NCBI RefSeq assembly: GCF_019599295.1
Contig: NZ_JAIEWN010000055.1
Coordinates: forward strand, 1-35,362
Length of the DNA: 35,362 bases
Reading direction: 5' to 3'
From: Oscillochloris sp. ZM17-4
GTDB taxonomy: Bacteria; Chloroflexota; Chloroflexia; Chloroflexales; Chloroflexaceae
Shown in pieces: positions 4,932 through 23,902 of this stretch (position 1 is the first letter of the stretch; each line of letters begins with the position of its first letter). The position numbers and the translations under genes are program-made. Below the pieces are notes generated by a model, which worked only from the letters and a program-made list of their open reading frames with translations, did no database searches and was not told where the DNA came from.

Positions 4932-6674
4932 ATGAGCCTTTTGCCTACCCGCACGATCTTCTGGTTCAGCGTGGGCATCACCCTGCTGATCGGCGCCATC
5001 CTCGCCGGGTGCTCCTTCGCCGCCGGCCCCGCCCCTGCCGCCGTCAGGACGCCCGCGCCCCCCGCCGCAACCGCCGCGCCGAGCCCCGCGCCCGCGCCGC
5101 CGACATCCACGCCGCTCCCGCGCGGAGGGAACCTCTCCATCCGCCTCGCCGAGGATCTGCCCGACCTGCGGCCCTGGCAGCCTCGGTCCCGCGGCGAGGA
5201 GCAGGTGACCGCCATGCTCTACAGCGGCCTGATGCGCCTCGACGAGCGGCTCCGCCCCGTGCCCGACCTGGCCGAGTACTGGGACACCACCCCCGACGGG
5301 CGCACGATCACCTTCACGCTGCGCAGCGGCCTCACCTGGCACGACGGCGCACCACTCGACTCGGGCGATGTCCTCTTCACCCTGGAGCAGCTGCGCACGC
5401 TCCCCGTCACTAGCACCGCGCTCCTGGCCGACCTGCGCACGATCGAGGCGGTCACCACGCCCACCAGCGGCACCATCGTGCTCCAGCTGAACGGGCGCTA
5501 CGCCCCGCTCCTGTCGGCGCTCGCCGTGCCTGTCCTGCCACGCCACATCCTTGCGGGCCGCGACATCGGCGCCCTAAACTTCTGGGATCTGCCCGTCGGC
5601 AGCGGGCCGTTCAAGCTTGAGGAGCGCCGGCCCGGCCAGGCGATCATCCTCTCGCGCTTCGACGGGTTCGCCCGGGGCGCGCCCCTGCTCGACCGGGTGG
5701 CTTTCGTGGTCGCCCCCGACCCCGGCGTGGCACTCAAGGCGCTCGGCGACGGCGAGCTGCAGCTCGCCGAGCTGCCCTGGGGCCTGCAGAGCGACGCCGC
5801 AGCCGCCCCCGGCCTCCAGCTCGGCGCCTACCCCGAGAACGGCTACTACTTCCTCGGCTTCAACCTGCGCGAGGGCCACCCCTTCGCCGACCTCGCCCTG
5901 CGCCAGGCCCTCGCCAAGGCCGTCGATGTGCCCCGCCTCGTCGAGGCCGCCACCAAGGGACAGGGCATCCCGATCAGCTCCAGCGCCCTCCCTGGCTCCT
6001 GGGCCGACCTCACCCCGCCCCCGGCCGACTCGGCCGACCTCGACGGCGCACGGGACATCCTCGACGCCGCCGGCTGGACGCTTCCGCCCGGCGCGACCAT
6101 CCGCCAGCGCGACGGAATCACCCTCACCGCCAGCCTCTTCGTCCGCGGCGACGATGAGCGCCGCGTCGCCGCCGCCCGCCGCATCGCCGACGCCGCCGCC
6201 AGCGTCGGCTTCCAGATCGATGTCGAGCCAGCCGACTTCGCCACGGTCATCCTCGCCAAGTACGCCACGCCCTACAGCTTCGACCTGCTCCTCGGCAGCT
6301 GGAGCAACGGCATGGCCGACCCGGCCTTCGCCGACTCGTCCTACTATGACCCCGACGACTTCGCGCTCTTCCACTCAAGCCAGCTCAACCAGGGCGAGGC
6401 CGACACCCGGGCCACCCGCAACGTCGTCGGCTTCGCCGACTCGGCCTACGATAACCAGGCCCAGGCCGCCCGTCAGCTCTACAACCAGGACGAGCGCGCC
6501 GCCGCGATCAGCCAGACCCAGGCCCGCGTCGCCGAGCAGCTGCCCTACATCTTCCTCTGGGACGACCGCCTGCCCGTCGCCCTCAGCGCCACCGTCACCA
6601 CCCTCGACGGCCCGGTCAGCCTCAGCTCGCCGCGCTACCTCTGGAACATCGAGCGCTGGCACCTCTTGAAATGA
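4932..6674 (+). CDS. ABC transporter family-5 solute-binding lipoprotein
   Basis: From the ATG at 4932 the protein has 580 residues. A lipoprotein signal (TIFWFSVGITLLIGAILAGC, lipobox Cys27) is followed by an Ala/Pro-rich linker (about 30-67). The body is a family-5 (SBP_bac_5, oligopeptide/nickel type) domain: GGNLSIRLAEDLPDL, YSGLMRLDERLRPVPDLAEYW, ITFTLRSGLTWHDGAPLDSGDVLFTLEQL, GSGPFKLEERRPG and NGYYFLGFNLREGHPFADLALRQALAKAVD are all characteristic. It binds a peptide-like ligand outside the membrane for an ABC importer, but no permease or ATPase genes adjoin it, so its partners lie elsewhere. A longer reading from 4836 is unlikely, because it would bury the signal peptide behind 32 residues. 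The stop codon is the first part of a 7-mer palindrome. Confidence 0.88.
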   Translation: MSLLPTRTIFWFSVGITLLIGAILAGCSFAAGPAPAAVRTPAPPAATAAPSPAPAPPTSTPLPRGGNLSIRLAEDLPDLRPWQPRSRGEEQVTAMLYSGLMRLDERLRPVPDLAEYWDTTPDGRTITFTLRSGLTWHDGAPLDSGDVLFTLEQLRTLPVTSTALLADLRTIEAVTTPTSGTIVLQLNGRYAPLLSALAVPVLPRHILAGRDIGALNFWDLPVGSGPFKLEERRPGQAIILSRFDGFARGAPLLDRVAFVVAPDPGVALKALGDGELQLAELPWGLQSDAAAAPGLQLGAYPENGYYFLGFNLREGHPFADLALRQALAKAVDVPRLVEAATKGQGIPISSSALPGSWADLTPPPADSADLDGARDILDAAGWTLPPGATIRQRDGITLTASLFVRGDDERRVAAARRIADAAASVGFQIDVEPADFATVILAKYATPYSFDLLLGSWSNGMADPAFADSSYYDPDDFALFHSSQLNQGEADTRATRNVVGFADSAYDNQAQAARQLYNQDERAAAISQTQARVAEQLPYIFLWDDRLPVALSATVTTLDGPVSLSSPRYLWNIERWHLLK

Positions 6675-6734
6675 TTAATGTTGAATGTTAAATGTTGAAT
6701 GGGCCATTCAACATTCAACATTCAACATTAATCA
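6672..6734. repeat. 7-nt-unit palindrome (AATGTTG class)
   Basis: Left arm 6672-6702 and right arm 6704-6734 are 31 nt each with one mismatch. The arms consist of tandem AATGTTG-like heptamers and, on the other side, CATTCAA. The stem begins with the TGA of the upstream gene and ends 12 nt before the next ATG. A hairpin could limit read-through, but there is no U tract. Confidence 0.85.
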
Positions 6735-6746
6735 TTCAACATTCCT

Positions 6747-9240: not shown

Positions 9241-12081
9241 CAGCTCCATCGCCCACAGCACCGTGCTGCCCACCGCTGTGCAGATCAGCCAGTCCATCGG
9301 CGTGAGCGGCACCGTGCTGAAGGCCTGCTGGAGCACCGGCACGTACACCACCGCCACCTGTAGCGCCACCGAGAGCGCCACCGCCAGCCAGAGCCAGCCG
9401 TTGCTGCCCAGCTTGTGGAAGGCGCTGTGACGCTCGAAGCGCGCGTTGAACACGTTGAACAGCTGGAAGATGACCAGCGTGGTGAAGGCCAGCGTCTGCG
9501 CGTAGTGGATATCGCCCGCGCCGCCGGGCAGCAGCCCGCCGGGCAGCGCCCAGTCCATCACCCCAAGCGTGCCCGCCCCCATCACCGAACCGATCAGCAC
9601 GATGTCGAACCACATCGGCCCGGTGATCACGTTGCTGCGCGGGTCGCGCGGCGGCCGGGTCATCACATCGTGGTCGGCCGGGTCCACGCCCAGGGCAAGG
9701 GCCGGCGCCGAGTCGGTGAGCAGGTTCACCCAGAGGATCTGTGTGGCCAGCAGAGGTAGCACCACCGCCGAGCCCGCCTCGGGCACCAGGCCGATCAGGT
9801 CGGCCAGCACCACCCCGAAGAACATGGTAAACACCTCGCCGATGTTTGACGAGAGCAGGTAGCGCAGGAACTTCTGGATATTGGCGAAGATCGAGCGGCC
9901 CTCCTCCACGGCGGCCACGATCGAGGCGAAGTTATCGTCGGTCAGGATCATGTCGGCCGCGCCCTTGCTCACGTCCGTCCCGGTGATGCCCATGGCCACG
10001 CCGATGTCGGCCGACTTGAGGGCCGGCGCGTCGTTCACGCCGTCGCCGGTCATCGCGGCGATCTCGCCGTTGGCCTTGAGCGCCCGCACGATCCGCAGCT
10101 TGTGCTCGGGGGCCACCCGCGCGTAGACGCTGTGCTCGACCACCGCCGCCCGCAGGGCCGCCTCGTCCATCTGCTCGATCTCGGCCCCGCGCACCGCCCG
10201 CTCGCCCGCCGCCGCGATCCCCAGCTCCGCGGCGATCGCCGCCGCCGTGGTCGGGTGGTCCCCGGTGATCATGATCGGCCGCACCCCGGCCACCCTGGCG
10301 TCGGCCACGGCGGCCTGCGCCTCCGGCCGGGGCGGGTCGATCATGCCGATCACCCCCAGGAAGACCAGCTCGCGCTCCACGTCCTTCTCACTGATTGCAG
10401 ATTGCAGATTGTAGATTGTAGATTGTGACGTGCGCGCTGCTTCAGCGTCGTCTTTCAAATCTGCAATCTGCAATCTGAAATCTGCAATTGGCAGCGTGCG
10501 GTAGGCCACGCCCAGGGTGCGCAGCGCCTCGCCGGCCAGCGACTCGACGCCCGAGATGATCGCCGCGCGGCGCTCGTCGCTCAGCGTGCGGACCTCCTCT
10601 CCCACCCGCTCGTGCTCACATCGCGAGAGCAGGATGTCGGGGGCGCCCTTGGCGAAGACGATCACCCGCTCGCGGTGCTCGGCATCGGTGTGGGCGGTGC
10701 TCATCAGCTTGCGCTCGGAGCTGAAGGGCACCTCGGCCACCCGCGGGAAGCGCTCGCCCAGCTCATCGTCGGTCAGCCCGGCCTTGCGCGCCGCCACCAG
10801 GATGGCCCCCTCGGTCGGGTCGCCCTGGATCGTCCAGCGCCCGTCCTCGCCGCGCAGCAGCCCCGCGTTGTTGGCCAGGTCGGCGGCGCGCAGGGTCTTC
10901 TGCACCTCCGTGCGCAGCGCCGGGTCGGCCAGGGGCGCGCCCGCCCGCTCCAGCTCGCCCTCGGGCGCGTAGCCGATGCCGGTCAGGTCCACCCGGCCGC
11001 CGGCGGTGATCACCGCGCGCACCGTCATCTCATTCTTGGTCAGCGTGCCGGTCTTATCCGAGCAGATCACCGTGGTCGAGCCCAGCGTCTCCACCGCCGA
11101 GAGCTTGCGCACAATCACGTTGCGCTTCGCCATGCGCTGCATGCCCAGCGAGAGCACGATCGTCGTGATCGCCGTCAGCCCCTCGGGCACCGCCGCCACC
11201 GCCAGCGAGACGCCGAGCAGCAGCACGTCCACCAGCTCGCCCAGGTCGCGCACCTCATCGACGAGCACGATCGTCACGCTCATCACCACGGCGATGATGA
11301 TCACCACGATGCCGAGCAGCTTGCCAACCCTGGCCAGCTCGCGCTGGAGCGGGGTGCTCTCGTCCTCGGCCTCCTGGAGCGACCCGGCGATCTTGCCGAT
11401 CTCACTCGATGGGCCGGTGGCCGTCACCAGCGCCCGGCCGCGCCCGGAGGCCACGGCGGTGCCGCCGAAGACCATATTCTGCCGGTCGCCGATGCTGGCC
11501 TCGCCGGGGATGGCCGCGCTATCCTTGGAGACGGCGCTGCTCTCGCCGGTGAGCGTCGACTCGGCCACGCGCATGGCGATCGACTCGATCACCCGCGCGT
11601 CGGCGGGCAGCGTGTCGCCCTCCTCGATCAGCAGGATGTCGCCGGGCACCACCTCGGCCGAGGGCACCTGCTGCTGCGCCCCGTCGCGCAGGACGCGGGC
11701 GGTGGGCGAGGACATGGCCTGGAGGGCGGCCACCGCCTGCTCGGCGCGGCTCTCCTGGACGAAGCCGAGCGCGCCGTTGAGCAGCACGATCGCCAGGATG
11801 GTGATCGTCTCGAAGGGCACCGGCTCGGCGCGCTCGATCAGCCATGCCACAAACGAGATCACCGTGGCGGCGAGCAGCAGGCCGGTCAGCGGGTCGCGGA
11901 ACTGGGCCAGGAAGCGCAGCCAGGCCGGGGTGGGCGGCGGCGACGGCAGCTCGTTGCGCCCGTGGCGGCCCAGGCGGCCGGCGGCATCCTCGGCGCTCAG
12001 CCCGCGCGCCGGGCTCACATCCAGCTCGGCGAGCAGGTCGGACACCTCGCGGGCGTAGGGCGGCTTGGCCGCGCTTGTCAT
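9208..12081 (-). CDS. P-type (P2) cation-transporting ATPase, Ca2+ type
   Basis: A 957-residue protein of the PMR1/PacL/SERCA group with a cation ATPase N-terminal domain (YAREVSDLLAELDVS...GLSAEDAAGRL), then membrane helices. Actuator motif TGES is near residue 178. Phosphorylation motif CSDKTGTLT has its Asp near 343. The hinge is ITGDHPTT and MTGDGVNDAPALKSADIG (about 675-692), and six C-terminal helices follow. PEGL in the fourth helix region (AVAAVPEGLTAI) fits a Ca2+/Mn2+ exporter. It would use ATP to expel divalent cations. Start: ATG at 12079-12081 with GGGAGA upstream; a TATAAT -10 on the minus strand lies at 12117-12122. Residues about 530-566 are encoded by an inserted 7-mer palindrome that keeps the frame open (see repeat at 10391). 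Confidence 0.92.
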   Translation of the reverse strand: MTSAAKPPYAREVSDLLAELDVSPARGLSAEDAAGRLGRHGRNELPSPPPTPAWLRFLAQFRDPLTGLLLAATVISFVAWLIERAEPVPFETITILAIVLLNGALGFVQESRAEQAVAALQAMSSPTARVLRDGAQQQVPSAEVVPGDILLIEEGDTLPADARVIESIAMRVAESTLTGESSAVSKDSAAIPGEASIGDRQNMVFGGTAVASGRGRALVTATGPSSEIGKIAGSLQEAEDESTPLQRELARVGKLLGIVVIIIAVVMSVTIVLVDEVRDLGELVDVLLLGVSLAVAAVPEGLTAITTIVLSLGMQRMAKRNVIVRKLSAVETLGSTTVICSDKTGTLTKNEMTVRAVITAGGRVDLTGIGYAPEGELERAGAPLADPALRTEVQKTLRAADLANNAGLLRGEDGRWTIQGDPTEGAILVAARKAGLTDDELGERFPRVAEVPFSSERKLMSTAHTDAEHRERVIVFAKGAPDILLSRCEHERVGEEVRTLSDERRAAIISGVESLAGEALRTLGVAYRTLPIADFRLQIADLKDDAEAARTSQSTIYNLQSAISEKDVERELVFLGVIGMIDPPRPEAQAAVADARVAGVRPIMITGDHPTTAAAIAAELGIAAAGERAVRGAEIEQMDEAALRAAVVEHSVYARVAPEHKLRIVRALKANGEIAAMTGDGVNDAPALKSADIGVAMGITGTDVSKGAADMILTDDNFASIVAAVEEGRSIFANIQKFLRYLLSSNIGEVFTMFFGVVLADLIGLVPEAGSAVVLPLLATQILWVNLLTDSAPALALGVDPADHDVMTRPPRDPRSNVITGPMWFDIVLIGSVMGAGTLGVMDWALPGGLLPGGAGDIHYAQTLAFTTLVIFQLFNVFNARFERHSAFHKLGSNGWLWLAVALSVALQVAVVYVPVLQQAFSTVPLTPMDWLICTAVGSTVLWAMELRKGIGRLRAA
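10391..10491. repeat. 7-nt-unit palindrome (GATTGCA class) inside the ATPase coding sequence
   Basis: Left part 10391-10426 is tandem GATTGCA/GATTGTA heptamers; right part about 10456-10491 is the inverted set (CAATCTG). They are separated by about 30 nt. Because three heptamers equal seven codons, the translated repeat is a heptad of the type IADFRLQ on one arm and STIYNLQ on the other. It lies between the GVAYRTLP and ELVFLGVIGMIDPPR strands of the nucleotide-binding domain. Confidence 0.85.
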
Positions 12082-12675: not shown

Positions 12676-12721
12676 GGTGTGACCAACGCGCCGCCCGCGC
12701 CATTGGCGGCCCGCCCGTCGG
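12676..12721. repeat. Partial copy of the allB 3' coding segment
   Basis: These 46 bases match 12823-12868, inside the end of allB, with 3 mismatches in direct orientation 147 bp apart. The palindrome at 12722-12783 lies between the copies. Confidence 0.85.
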
Positions 12722-12783
12722 GTAGGGCCGAAGCATTGTGATGGGCGCGCCTCGGCGCGCCCATCACAATGCTTCGGCCCTAC
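12722..12783. repeat. Perfect 30-bp palindrome, GTAGGGCCGAAGCA family
   Basis: Arms 12722-12751 and 12754-12783 are perfect 30-bp inverted repeats around a TC centre. The outer part GTAGGGCCGAAGCAT is shared with the palindrome at 15293-15351, while the inner part differs. The outer end supplies the TAG stop (12780-12782) of allB. Confidence 0.9.
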
Positions 12784-14171
12784 GGCGTTGACGGCGCACC
12801 CGCCCGTGGCGACGCCGCCAACGGCGTGACCAGCGCGCCGCCCGCGCCATCGGCGGCCCGCCCGTCGGCGAAGATCGTCTGCCCGCGCCGGATGGTGCGC
12901 GCAACCCGCCCGCCCATCGCCCGCCCGACGTAGGGGCTGAGCCGGTGGCGGTCGAGCAGATCCTCGCGGCGCAGGGCCGCCCGGTCGCCCAGGTCGACCA
13001 GGGCCAGGTCGGCGTCGTGGCCCGGCGCGATCTGGCCCTTGCGCCCGGCGATGCCGAAGCGCCGGGCCACGTTCCCCGCCGTCAGCCCCGCCACGGCGGC
13101 CAGGGCCATGCCGCGCCGGTGGTGGCCCTCCTCAAGCAGCAGGCCCAGGGTGGACTGCACCCCGGCGATGCCGCCCCACAGGGCGAAGAAGCTCGCGCCC
13201 GCGCCCTTCATCTCCGGCGGCGCCGGCGAGTGGTCGGAGGCCACCAGGTCGATCTGGCCGGCCAGCAGGCGTGACCACAGATCGCCCTGGTCGGCCTCGC
13301 CCCGGATGGGCGGCGCGCACTTGGCCGCCGCGCCGATCCGCTCCACGTCGTCCTCGGTCAGCGCCAGGTAGTGCGGGCAGGTCTCACAGGTCACATCGAC
13401 CCCGCGCGCGCGGGCCTCGGCCACCAGGGCCACGCCGGCCCCGCTGCTCACGTGGACGATGTGCAGGGCGCAGCCGGTCTGCCCGGCGAAGAGCAGGGCG
13501 CGCTGGATGGCCTCTAGCTCGGCGATCACCGGCCGCGAGGCCAGGTAGTCGCGGGCCGTGGCGCGGCCCTCGGCCAGGGCGCGGGCGGCCAGGGCCGAGG
13601 TGAGCGCATCGCTCTCGGCGTGGACGGCCACCGGCAGGCCGAGCCGGGCGGCCCGCGCCATGCCCTCGTAGAGCGTCAGGTCATCGGCGGCCGCGAAGTC
13701 GTCGATGCCGCTGTTTGACATAAATGCCTTAAAGCCAATCACGCCGCAGGCCGCCAGCTCATCGAGCCGGCCGACGCCGCCGGGCACCAGCCCGCCCCAG
13801 AGCGCGAAGTCGGCCATGGAGGACGCCTCGGCGGCGGCGCGCTTGAGCGCGAAGCTGGCGGCGTCGAGGGTGGGCGGGCTGGCGTTCAGCGGCATCTCGA
13901 AGCAGAGCGCGCCCCCGCCTGCGGCCAGCGCCCGCGAGCCTGTGGCCCAGCCCTCCCATGCCGTGCGCCCCGGCTCGTTGAAGTGGACGTGGGCGTCGAT
14001 CAGGGCCGGCAGCACGTGCAGGCCCGTGGCGGTGATCTCCGTGCGCGCCGCCCCCTCCAGCCCCGGCCCGACGGCGGCGACCAGTCCGTCCGCCACCGCC
14101 ACATCGGCCACCGCCACGCCCCGAGGCGTCACGGCGACGCCCCCGCGGATGATCAGATCGTATCGAGACAT
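12780..14171 (-). CDS. allB: Allantoinase
   Basis: A 463-residue cyclic amidohydrolase from ATG 14169-14171 (MSRYDLIIRGG). It opens the hydantoin ring of allantoin to allantoate. Metal and substrate residues are visible in order: the HxH of DAHVHFNEPGRT with WEGWATGSRALAAGG after it, typical of AllB; the carboxylated Lys in GFKAFMSNSG; His in PVAVHAES and in ALHIVHVSS; CETCPHYLALTEDD; KCAPPIR; and the Asp of VASDHSPAPPEMK. Length fits the family (about 450). The start 60 bases further upstream is rejected, as the N-terminus matches the family at MSRYD and GGGG precedes that ATG. It lies 7 nt behind the allC remnant, so they were an allC-allB operon for purine breakdown. The C-terminus is Ala/Pro-rich, has been partly duplicated and ends in a palindrome. 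Confidence 0.92.
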   Translation of the reverse strand: MSRYDLIIRGGVAVTPRGVAVADVAVADGLVAAVGPGLEGAARTEITATGLHVLPALIDAHVHFNEPGRTAWEGWATGSRALAAGGGALCFEMPLNASPPTLDAASFALKRAAAEASSMADFALWGGLVPGGVGRLDELAACGVIGFKAFMSNSGIDDFAAADDLTLYEGMARAARLGLPVAVHAESDALTSALAARALAEGRATARDYLASRPVIAELEAIQRALLFAGQTGCALHIVHVSSGAGVALVAEARARGVDVTCETCPHYLALTEDDVERIGAAAKCAPPIRGEADQGDLWSRLLAGQIDLVASDHSPAPPEMKGAGASFFALWGGIAGVQSTLGLLLEEGHHRRGMALAAVAGLTAGNVARRFGIAGRKGQIAPGHDADLALVDLGDRAALRREDLLDRHRLSPYVGRAMGGRVARTIRRGQTIFADGRAADGAGGALVTPLAASPRAGAPSTP

Positions 14172-14178
14172 CACGCCC

Positions 14179-15262
14179 CTACGCCATCCCGTCAAGGAAC
14201 CGCCCCACCACATCAATGGCGACCGCCACATCCTCCACCGTCACCGACTCGGCCGGGTTATGGCTGACCCCGCCCTTACAGCGCACGAACAGCATGGCCG
14301 CGTCGGTCACGCCCGCCATCACGGCGGCGTCGTGGCCGGCCCCGCTGGGCAGCTCGGTCGGCGGGTGGCCGGCGGCGGCGATCGCGGCGGCGAGCCGCTC
14401 GCGCAGGGCCGGCGTCATCGGCACCGCCGGCTGGCCGTGCCCGTCATCCCAGGCCATGCCGAGGCCGCGCGCGGCGGCGATCTCCTCGGCCCGCCGGCGC
14501 AGTGCGGACAGCCCCTCCAGGCGCGCCGGGCTCTCCTGGTGGCGCAGGTCCAGGCTGAGCGTGGCGGCGCCGGGGATCACATTGCTGGCGCCGGGCGCGA
14601 GCGCCAGCTGGCCGACGGTGGCCACCAGGCCCGGCACGCCGCGCGCGTACTGCTCGGCGGCCAGCACAAACTCGGCGGCCGCGCAGAGCGCGTCGTGGCG
14701 CAAATCCATCGGCACGGTGCCGGCGTGGCCGGCCACCCCCGTGAAGGTCAGGCTGCTCCGGCCGAGGCCGGTGATCGCGCTCACCACGCCCACCGGCATG
14801 CCCGCCAGCTCCAGCTGCGGCCCCTGCTCGATATGCACCTCCAGGTAGCCGAGCAGATCCCAGGAACGAGGGGAAGCGCAGGCCCTCCTCTTCGGTGAAG
14901 GCCACCACCTCGACGGCGAAGGGCAGGCGGCGGCCGGCGCGGTGCAGCCGCTCGACGGCGGCCAGCCCCACCAGCACCCCCAGCGGGCCATCATACTTCC
15001 CGGCGTCGCGCACCGTGTCCAGGTGCGATCCGATGATCAGCGTGCGGGCCGCCGAGCGGTCGGCCGGGTAGCTCCCCACCAGACTCCCGGCGTTATCCTC
15101 GTAGACCGTCATGCCGGCGGCGCGCATCCAGCCGGACACCATATCGTGGGCGGAGCGCATCGCCGGGGTGAGCGAGCGCCGGGTGAGCCGGCCCTCCTCC
15201 TCGCTGATCGCCCCCAGGGCGTCGCACCGCCCCATCACCAGCCGGGCGAGATCGTTAGACAT
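14179..15262 (-). pseudogene. allC: Allantoate amidohydrolase / N-carbamoyl amino acid hydrolase, internally deleted and frameshifted
   Basis: An M20-type hydrolase in two frames. The first frame (start 15262) reads to FTEEEGLRFPSFLG and carries the metal ligands of GSHLDTV, AGKYDGPLG and EEEG. At about 14,862-14,870 homology jumps to another frame, continuing DLLGYLEVHIEQGPQLE to the end at 14179, with the remaining ligands in HIEQGP and SGAGHDA. Intact members are about 410 residues; here only about 361 codons remain. The 50 or so residues that normally separate the '(F)LGS' and 'YLEVHIEQGP' motifs are gone, and the deletion is not a multiple of three. Every metal ligand survives, so the gene was functional until recently, or the break is an assembly error. 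It would convert allantoate to ureidoglycine, the step after AllB. Confidence 0.85.
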
Positions 15263-15292
15263 AGAAAGCCTAATCTATACATTTATTTGCCC

Positions 15293-15351
15293 GTAGGGCC
15301 GAAGCATATGCGATTGTCGCTCCGCGACAATCGCATATGCTCCGGCCCTAC
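15293..15351. repeat. 28-bp palindrome, GTAGGGCCGAAGCA family
   Basis: Arms 15293-15320 and 15324-15351 pair with one mismatch. The outer 15 bases equal those of the 12722 element; the inner sequence (TATGCGATTGTCGC) is different. The outer end provides the TAG stop (15348-15350) of the PPOX-type gene. Confidence 0.9.
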
Positions 15352-15752
15352 ACCCCCTGTCCATACGCCTTCGCGATCGTCATGCGCGCGCTGAGCCGAG
15401 GCGCGTCGGGGCGGCGCTGGAGCCATGCCGCAACTCCCTCGGGGCCGAGGTAGCGCGCGGCCAGTCGCGCCCGCAGATCCGTGTCGGGCGGCTCGACCAC
15501 GGCGGTGCCCTGGAGCGTCAGGTAGCGCCGGCCATCGGAGACCGTGACGCTGATCGTCGGGCTGCGGCGCAGGTTGCGCGCCTTCACGCTGCCCGCGCCC
15601 ATGCTAAAGCGGATCTCGTCTCCGTCCAGCATATACCAGACCACCGTCTGCTGGATCGAGCCGTCGGCGTTGAGGGTGGCCACGGCCGCGTAGTGGACCT
15701 CGTCCAGGTACGCACGCTGGGCGTCGCTCAGAGTCACGGGAAGGGCCATCAT
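15348..15752 (-). CDS. PPOX-class (pyridoxamine-oxidase-like / F420-dependent) split-barrel protein
   Basis: 134 residues from the ATG at 15752. Split beta-barrel features: ALPVTLSDAQRAYLDEVHYAAVATLNADGSIQQTVVWYMLDGDEIRFSM, then AGSVKARNLRRSPTISVTVSDGRRYLTLQGTAVV, a pattern typical of small F420- or FMN-binding PPOX-class enzymes (residues K.RNL and 'W...DGD'). It probably reduces or oxidises a small molecule with F420 or flavin; the substrate is not predictable. Start choice: the ATG at 15758 abuts AGGAG with no spacer, whereas the second ATG (15752) has AGGAG six bases upstream. A possible promoter (TTCTCA, 18 bp, TACAAT, minus strand) lies at 15786-15815. Confidence 0.85.
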   Translation of the reverse strand: MMALPVTLSDAQRAYLDEVHYAAVATLNADGSIQQTVVWYMLDGDEIRFSMGAGSVKARNLRRSPTISVTVSDGRRYLTLQGTAVVEPPDTDLRARLAARYLGPEGVAAWLQRRPDAPRLSARMTIAKAYGQGV

Positions 15753-15785
15753 CGGCATCTCCTGATGTCACATACACATACGCTA

Positions 15786-17449: not shown

Positions 17450-17509
17450 GACCAATGACAAACGACGAACGACGAACCACGGTTCGTCGTTCGTCGTTTG
17501 TCATTGGTC
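17450..17509. repeat. Perfect 29-bp 7-mer palindrome (ACGACGA class)
   Basis: Arms 17450-17478 and 17481-17509 are perfect inverted repeats around AC. Each arm holds tandem ACGACGA-type heptamers. It begins 9 nt after the sigma factor stop and may act as a read-through block for that gene. Confidence 0.9.
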
Positions 17510-18639: not shown

Positions 18640-18641
18640 CT

Positions 18642-18719
18642 GGATTGCAGATTGCAGATTGCAGATTGCAGATTGCAGCCGCGGCCCAATCTACAATCTG
18701 CAATCTACAATCTGCAATT
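18642..18719. repeat. 7-nt-unit palindrome (GATTGCA class)
   Basis: Five tandem GATTGCA heptamers on the left (18642-18678), a short GC centre, then inverted CAATCTG/CAATCTA heptamers (18687-18719). It sits exactly between two convergent genes and stops 3 nt short of the TGA of the peptidase gene. Confidence 0.9.
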
Positions 18720-18721
18720 CA

Positions 18722-20218: not shown

Positions 20219-20226
20219 AGGGGAAG

Positions 20227-20255
20227 GGGCGCAGCAGCGCGGCGCTGCTGCGCCC
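20227..20255. repeat. GC palindrome GGGCGCAGCAGCGC, copy 1
   Basis: Arms 20227-20240 and 20242-20255, 14 bp perfect around one base, followed by TTAC. It lies between cbiO and cbiQ. The same palindrome occurs at 21137-21165. Confidence 0.9.
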
Positions 20256-20275
20256 TTACATCGGAGGCCGCAGCC

Positions 20276-21136: not shown

Positions 21137-21165
21137 GGGCGCAGCAGCGCCGCGCTGCTGCGCCC
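21137..21165. repeat. GC palindrome GGGCGCAGCAGCGC, copy 2
   Basis: Same 14-bp perfect arms as at 20227, with C instead of G at the centre and the same TTAC flank. It lies between cbiQ and cbiM. Confidence 0.9.
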
Positions 21166-21233
21166 TTACGTATGTCACGGCCCTAGTCGCCGCGCTGCTG
21201 CGCCCTTACGTATGTCACGGCCCTAGTCGCCGC
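21148..21233. repeat. 40-bp tandem duplication over the cbiM stop
   Basis: Units 21148-21187 and 21188-21227 are identical, with 6 further matching bases. The unit contains the right half of the GC palindrome. The cbiM stop (21223-21225) lies inside the second unit, so a duplicate of the last bases follows the gene. Confidence 0.92.
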
Positions 21234-23801: not shown

Positions 23802-23902
23802 TAATTGCAGATTGTAGATTGTAGATTGCAGATTGGGTGATGTCTGACTCAATCTACACTCTATCATTTACACGCTACAATCTGCTATCTGCAATCTACA
23901 AT
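23802..23902. repeat. Degenerate 7-nt-unit palindrome (GATTGTA class)
   Basis: Left heptamers 23802-23836 (GATTGTA/GATTGCA) and right inverted heptamers 23850-23902, several of them diverged (such as CACTCTA, CATTTAC). The right arm overlaps the ATG (23901) of the following gene and replaces any Shine-Dalgarno. This copy is more worn than those at 10391 and 18642. Confidence 0.85.

Follow-up and report, generated by a model that had tools for sequence, protein, structure and literature searches.

BIMEs and REPINs are built from inverted REP units with outer tags. The hairpins described here, a family of palindromes ending in the arm GTAGGGCCGAAGCA that we designated F1, recall one fused dimer of such units. 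Unlike BIMEs and REPINs, the two halves of F1 are continuous in one stem and meet at a loop of 2–3 nt in the copies examined. GTAG REPs, as presented in the sections of the survey by Di Nocera et al. (2013; PMC3733652) that concern us here, are high-copy elements located between tandem or convergent genes. They form species-specific families, often give the TAG stop codon to ORFs and are listed in the Chloroflexi. The same sections mention that two Xanthomonas species have different REPs at about the same site in recB, and that the complementary inner regions of Bradyrhizobium GTAG-14 reach up to 27 bp (PMC3733652).

F1 resembles GTAG REPs in its terminal GTAG, which pairs with CTAC at the opposite end (the four pairs are kept in 25, 24, 25, and 26 of 26 copies), and in its location at gene 3′ ends (46 of 48 hairpins between tandem or convergent genes). 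By contrast, the tag is paired at both ends of F1 and the stems measure 27–31 bp, whereas the GTAG REPs of the sections cited carry an unpaired tag at one end and have stems of 5–13 bp (PMC3733652). F1 is also unlike these REPs in having distinct zones: a constant base, a variable paired middle and a constant tip. The supply of TAG by GTAG REPs is already published (PMC3733652); F1 differs in the paired tag at two ends, the long stems and the lack of a detected Y1/RAYT gene.

RAYT/REPtron systems also involve GTAG-type palindromes. As far as the parts of the two reports used here extend, one REP group is perfect and the REP classes flanking orthologous RAYTs differ between related strains (PMC8266576, PMC3686654). 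Unlike these systems, F1 resides in a genome without a detected Y1 transposase, and the spots where palindromes differ between species are ordinary gene ends. Replacement of REPs in the same slot appeared in the literature searched, which included few subscription papers, only for Xanthomonas recB and in remarks on RAYT flanks. Hairpins shaped by template switching have been described for rRNA and microRNA genes (Monttinen and Löytynoja, 2022; PMC8794818). In the portion of that study relevant here, intrastrand template switches are proposed to correct G-U intermediates by the 5′ base, which would produce an excess of G-C and U-A pairs. F1 differs from the rRNA and microRNA hairpins as a dispersed bacterial repeat with constant ends, known from the comparison of copies rather than from dated events.

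Two palindromes in the window and the F1 family

The window is the whole 35,362-base contig C134 of the 6.69-Mb assembly G000, which is 98.6% complete. Its relevant features are:

12682–12721, plus strand: 40-nt copy of the 3′ part of the amidohydrolase gene, adjoining the left edge of the 12722–12783 element
12722–12783, no strand: F1 palindrome of 62 nt with 14-bp constant ends, a paired variable middle and a 2-nt loop
12780–12782, minus strand: TAG stop of the amidohydrolase gene, from the outer end of the 12722–12783 element (CTA on the plus strand)
12780–14231, minus strand: ORF of 483 aa, amidohydrolase family (Amidohydro_1, Pfam)
15293–15351, no strand: F1 palindrome of 59 nt with 14-bp constant ends, a paired variable middle and a CGC-TCC-GCG tip
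15348–15350, minus strand: TAG stop of the PPOX-type gene, from the outer end of the 15293–15351 element (CTA on the plus strand)
15348–15758, minus strand: ORF of 136 aa, PNPOx_N (PPOX type, Pfam)
20223–20259, no strand: related short palindrome of the GTAAGGGCGCAGCAG type, one end being GAAGGG
21137–21169, no strand: related short palindrome of the GTAAGGGCGCAGCAG type, with the tagged end CTTAC at 21169

The first F1 palindrome is perfect, with arms of 30 bp. The second has arms of 28 bp, a loop of 3 nt, one mismatch and one change in the constant end of its right arm, leaving GTAGGGCCGAAGCA exact at three of the four ends and altered at a single base at the remaining one. The folding of both is much stronger than that of shuffled sequences (z about −12; 0 of 200 shuffles as good). 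We thus recovered the two palindromes of the first-pass annotation, with their common outer arm, their different inner stems and the outer ends that close the two minus-strand genes with TAG. Of the gene names proposed there, Pfam upholds the PPOX type for the second and places the first in the amidohydrolase family, allB being the annotation's own name for it. Within the window alone, the arm is only mildly enriched at up to three mismatches, with nine occurrences versus an average of 4.4 in 100 shuffles, three of which reached as many. The first element is flanked by a 40-nt near-identical direct repeat (12682–12721 and 12829–12868, the latter inside the amidohydrolase gene), a single copy of which was found in the stretch examined of the sister species G005. 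Local duplications touch some F1 copies, this element included.

The window also contains palindromes made of repeated short units (6670–6736, 10394–10488, 17450–17509, 18641–18721, and 23804–23902). The units are mostly 7-mers such as ATTGCAG or AATGTTG, and those like the 18641–18721 units are found repeatedly across the genus. The density of perfect palindromes whose arms measure at least 20 bp is 103 per Mb in the G000 pieces and 79 per Mb in the G005 pieces. In these pieces, the commonest tip among palindromes with arms of at least 16 bp is GC-nnn-GC, and many have a G+T-rich 5′ arm.

Across G000, the GTAGGGCCGAAGCA arm at up to two mismatches occurs 279 and 281 times on the two strands, versus 45 and 40 times for the reversed arm that served as control. 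At up to one mismatch, the counts are 164 and 166 versus 1 and 1. Exact-ended palindromes with a centre of 10–40 nt number at least 62, versus none for the control, so the repeat postulated by the first-pass annotation extends well beyond the two copies in the window. The other GTAR families in G000 have cores near 28 nt. Among genus members, F1 arms on both strands number 330 (G000), 18 (G001), 402 (G002), 143 (G003), 32 (G004), and 9 (G005). Exact copies of the arm of another family, GTAGAGACGCCCC, number 6, 42, 6, 28, 56, and 81 in the same order; the two series run roughly opposite, and the species differ in which family is large.

The same exact-ended palindrome is present in ten stretches of public contigs labelled Chloroflexaceae (1), Oscillochloris (3), Ca. 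Chloroploca (1), Ca. Viridilinea (4), and Gracilibacteria (1). From these labels, G000 most likely belongs to a Chloroflexota in the neighbourhood of the Chloroflexaceae. The contig labelled Gracilibacteria (L087), with an F1 element of the longer class described below at 2763–2834, is possibly a mis-binned Chloroflexota contig. Runs of N near F1 arms of G000 (C1:93340, C139:7171, and C97:32517) are perhaps assembly gaps at hairpins or masked stretches.

Constant ends and a paired, variable middle

The anatomy of F1 was examined in 1.645 Mb of G000, a sample partly picked for F1 arms. The 72 F1 arm pairs that it contains comprise 48 hairpins, two of them with related rather than F1 ends, and 24 others. 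The middle of the hairpins has a narrow length, since 42 of the 48 measure 59–63 nt and 26 exactly 59 nt. Stems are 27–31 bp long in the F1-ended hairpins, and 13 of the 1371 stem pairs in all 48 are unpaired. The remaining arm pairs include three of 37–40 nt and a longer class of 68–79 nt (n = 21), in which one copy is fully paired and the rest have a short paired variable stretch around a mostly unpaired centre. This longer class accounts for 8 of the 13 elements seen in the loci of relatives. It is also found in named relatives (L081 and L084–L089), and three of its copies form a tandem array in G000 (C1:344838–345039).

We aligned 34 copies of 59 nt, 26 from the 1.645 Mb and 8 from the exact-ended palindromes counted above. 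The outer 14 bp and the CGC-nnn-GCG tip are constant and the 11 bp in between vary (in the left arm, positions 26–28 are always CGC and positions 15–25 are variable). The inner 14 positions of the 34 copies comprise 321 cells equal to the consensus, 152 with changes on both arms and 3 without pairing. At the outer 14 positions of the 26 copies, 357 cells equal the consensus, one has a two-arm change and six have one-arm changes. The balance of two-arm to one-arm changes differs between the inner (152:3) and outer (1:6) positions (p = 2.5e-8), with small one-sided counts. In a separate count of the 26 copies, 99.0% of 728 cells were paired, versus at most 38.5% when the arms were slid; 115 cells were two-sided, versus 31.2 in shuffles (0 of 500 as high). 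Covariation was 0.427, versus 0.093 in shuffles, which leave relatedness in.

The middles behave almost as if drawn independently from a profile: 22 pairs have at most two differences, whereas column shuffles average 15.2 such pairs and reach 22 in 49 of 500 cases. Two pairs of F1 copies at different loci, with unrelated flanks, have a common middle. This variation of the centre in matched pairs goes beyond the first-pass annotation, as does the frequent presence of another palindrome at the same spot in a sister species. At 81 of the 96 F1 ends in G000, a pyrimidine adjoins the tag on its outer side, and the motif may be YGTAG.

The two arms of the middle also differ in composition. The 5′ arm is 74% G+T, with values above half in 44 copies, below half in 2 and even in 2 (48 copies). 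For untagged hairpins with a GC-nnn-GC tip, G+T in the 5′ arm is above half in 93 and below in 15 of 113 in G000, and above in 36 and below in 3 of 39 in G005. Strand skew (leading/lagging or coding/template) would not account for the excess in the 5′ arm because a palindrome is its own complement. The direction of the excess fits that of template switching in the part of PMC8794818 cited above, a match that we consider suggestive, and a cause other than template switching could also produce it. The fit to switching through G-U intermediates suggests that F1 hairpins matter, or are tolerated, as RNA. Like the template-switch hairpins in that part of PMC8794818, F1 combines two-arm changes and perfect pairing with a surplus of G-C and U-A pairs when the stem is read from its 5′ arm. 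Furthermore, two-arm changes outnumber one-arm changes between F1 copies (152 to 3) and, in untagged hairpins, between species (14 to 6). The latter counts come from nine orthologous untagged hairpins with at least 70% identity (of 194 pairs, 174 are identical, 14 differ on both sides, and 6 are unpaired). In a further six orthologous hairpins, with identities below 70%, the numbers are 58, 64, and 1, and these may be unrelated sequences.

Gene ends and shared slots in a sister species

According to our own gene finder, the 48 F1 hairpins lie in 32 tandem, 14 convergent, and 1 divergent regions and 1 at an edge; the intergenic regions as a whole are 873 tandem, 207 convergent, and 199 divergent. 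Of 60 gene ends facing the hairpins, 22 stop exactly at the tag and one lies deep inside the element. Copies of the longer class (n = 20) are distributed over 10 tandem, 4 convergent, and 2 divergent regions, with 4 inside predicted genes, and 4 of the 18 gene ends that face them stop at the tag. In 855 kb that, apart from the window, were not selected for F1, 33 palindromes carry GTAR tags at their two ends, and the tag coincides with the stop in 18 of the 44 genes whose ends face them. The earlier proposal that placement on stop codons marks the sites of least harm is plausible in view of the 22 ends at the tag and the single one deep inside, yet unproven; 4 of the 20 longer-class copies lie inside genes. 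With random reading frames, genes would be expected to run into the element at about two thirds of coding insertions. A strong excess of GTAGGG at stops was rejected, since the 82 cases observed exceed only modestly the 64.7 obtained from the product of margins that include the elements. TAG is the commonest stop predicted by our gene finder in the G000 pieces (582 of 1307; TGA 477 and TAA 248), even though the first 420 kb of contig C1 are 68% G+C.

The genomes of G005 and G000 are largely syntenic, in long blocks that are mostly 80–95% identical, and 272 of the 973 intergenic regions in the G000 pieces could be matched to G005. A GTAR palindrome is present in both species in 11 of these regions, only in G000 in 18, only in G005 in 12 and in neither in 231. 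Hence, G005 has a palindrome at 11 of 29 spots with a G000 palindrome versus 12 of 243 otherwise (odds ratio 11.8, p = 1.7e-6). By region type, sharing has p = 3e-4 in tandem and p = 0.09 in convergent regions (CMH for both, p = 2.4e-5), and the divergent orthologous regions have a GTAR palindrome in 0 of 37 in either species. The palindrome itself is the same in both species at only one of the 11 shared slots (C1:209114). At least one edge matches at 19 or more of 30 bases in 10 of the 11. The edges of C161:113767 match at 12 and 14 of 30 bases, and this may not be the same spot in the two species. An edge coincides at shift 0 in six slots (C1:64573, 209114, 260043, 366663, 368003, and C95:254194). 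At C95:254194 and at C95:226144, the latter outside the 11, the right edge agrees and the left is off by 3 nt.

The sites in the window are not among the 11 shared slots: the 15293 region was scored as G000-only and 12722 was unmatched. Inspection by eye of G005 revealed imperfect GTAG palindromes near both sites, one of the GTAGAGACGCAGC type in the 15293 region and a different one at the end of the amidohydrolase gene, which in a codon-level comparison lies about twelve codons further upstream in the gene. This comparison of tag stops is unreliable where the alignment reaches the gene end and was used for site finding only. No GTAG palindrome was seen by eye at the 15293 site in G001, G002, and G004.

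Origin and upkeep of the hairpins

What is observed in F1 is a family with constant ends and tip, paired variation, a position at gene ends and shared slots. We hold with moderate confidence that these are REP-like, GTAG-tagged gene-end hairpins whose slot persists while the sequence turns over in both arms. As RNA at the 3′ end, the hairpin would be of use or else do no harm, and both pairing and stop codon would be kept. Through intrastrand template switching, replication may occasionally copy one arm from the other and thereby carry a change in the 5′ arm over to the 3′ arm. A family spreading in a given species would overwrite or replace older palindromes at the same slots. Arm-to-arm correction would be inefficient at the base of the stem because changes in the outer arm are mostly one-sided (6 versus 1). 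The near absence of one-sided intermediates in the middle argues against ordinary compensatory point mutation. The common middles at unrelated loci also fit copies born with a ready middle. A more specific version, in which a gene end inherits the slot and not the sequence, the tag serves as stop, and the arms are rewritten together by template switching and family replacement, is tentative. We rate it lower in view of the two sites in the window and of one shared slot among the 11, which do not count cleanly in its favour.

The GTAG tag, the many copies, the position at gene 3′ ends and the TAG stops bear out the REP-like affinity suggested by the first-pass annotation. Its MITE-like alternative finds no support in the features examined, given direct repeats of 3–9 nt at the edges of 0 of 48 hairpins and no carrier gene among Y1 or IS110-type transposases; repeats of 2 nt flank 6 of 48, versus a shuffled mean of 3.3. 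The Y1 transposase profile (PF01797) had 0 matches on G000 and was positive on control genomes. With no Y1 gene flanked by the repeat in the G000 assembly, we rejected a RAYT encoded in this assembly. One IS110-type gene is present in G000 and none of the tests ties it to F1; no genes between the single F1 arms examined were found by eye. We also rejected a middle copied from the target: matches to the own flanks average 6.38 nt versus 6.14 nt for other flanks (3 of 200 permutations as high, and so not nil), and the single long own-flank match is a local duplicate. An inner hairpin common to F1 copies and G005 slots was not seen by eye.

A different reading, which we regard as possible though doubtful, is that F1 consists of ordinary selfish GTAG REPs whose mover, RAYT-like or of another kind, was lost, was missed in the assembly or acts from elsewhere. 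The middle would be paired from birth, and slots would be shared through independent insertion at the few tolerated gene-end sites. Such mobility is consistent with the two pairs of copies that have the same middle at unrelated loci, with the cleavage of GTAG by RAYTs (in the sections of PMC3733652 cited) and with one-sided outer-arm changes that resemble decay after insertion. Furthermore, a search of 61 genomes detected Y1 genes in 41, and of the five other members of the genus four have them. However, the gene is absent in G000 and, among the other F1-rich genomes, G002 has one weak match, G003 partial ones and G036 and G031 none. Edge duplications of 3–9 nt are likewise absent, and independent insertion alone does not predict the G+T bias of the 5′ arm. 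Nor does it predict the base-exact edges at 6 of the 11 shared slots, one of which holds the same palindrome, although site-specific insertion could also suffice for them.

The position after genes, the strong pairing and the lack of GTAR palindromes in the 37 divergent orthologous regions would also suit purely functional RNA hairpins (3′-end stabilisers or terminators) that change by compensatory point mutation under selection for pairing, with no spreading or template switch. This is unlikely, as intermediates changed on one side are nearly absent (3 versus 152) and identical 14-bp ends at unrelated loci require spreading. Moreover, the T-tract of intrinsic terminators (at least 5 T in 8 nt after the stem) was found at 0 of 96 F1 ends. 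Nested growth, in which a core palindrome takes up a second one in its centre and ends and middle have different histories, is more improbable still. It would explain two GTAGGGACGCAGC-type 28-mers inside GTAG palindromes, one in the centre at C95:340363 and a less clean case in C99, and the insert of about 130 bp that interrupts the loop of one F1 hairpin (C1:179734–179925). Yet a search for the bare 28-nt F1 core at up to three mismatches found none in 1.245 Mb of G000 and 0.776 Mb of G005, the other hairpins examined lack an inner GTAR tag, and the middle has the narrow length noted above.

Perfect stems pose the problem of how pairing is preserved through sequence change. Present in dozens of copies, with constant ends as an internal control, F1 provides a natural experiment in which two-sided and one-sided changes can be counted directly. 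Conversion in place was long ago raised as an idea for enterobacterial REPs. The differences between sister species at the same slot could help to distinguish such conversion from reinsertion as the means by which REP-like elements persist.
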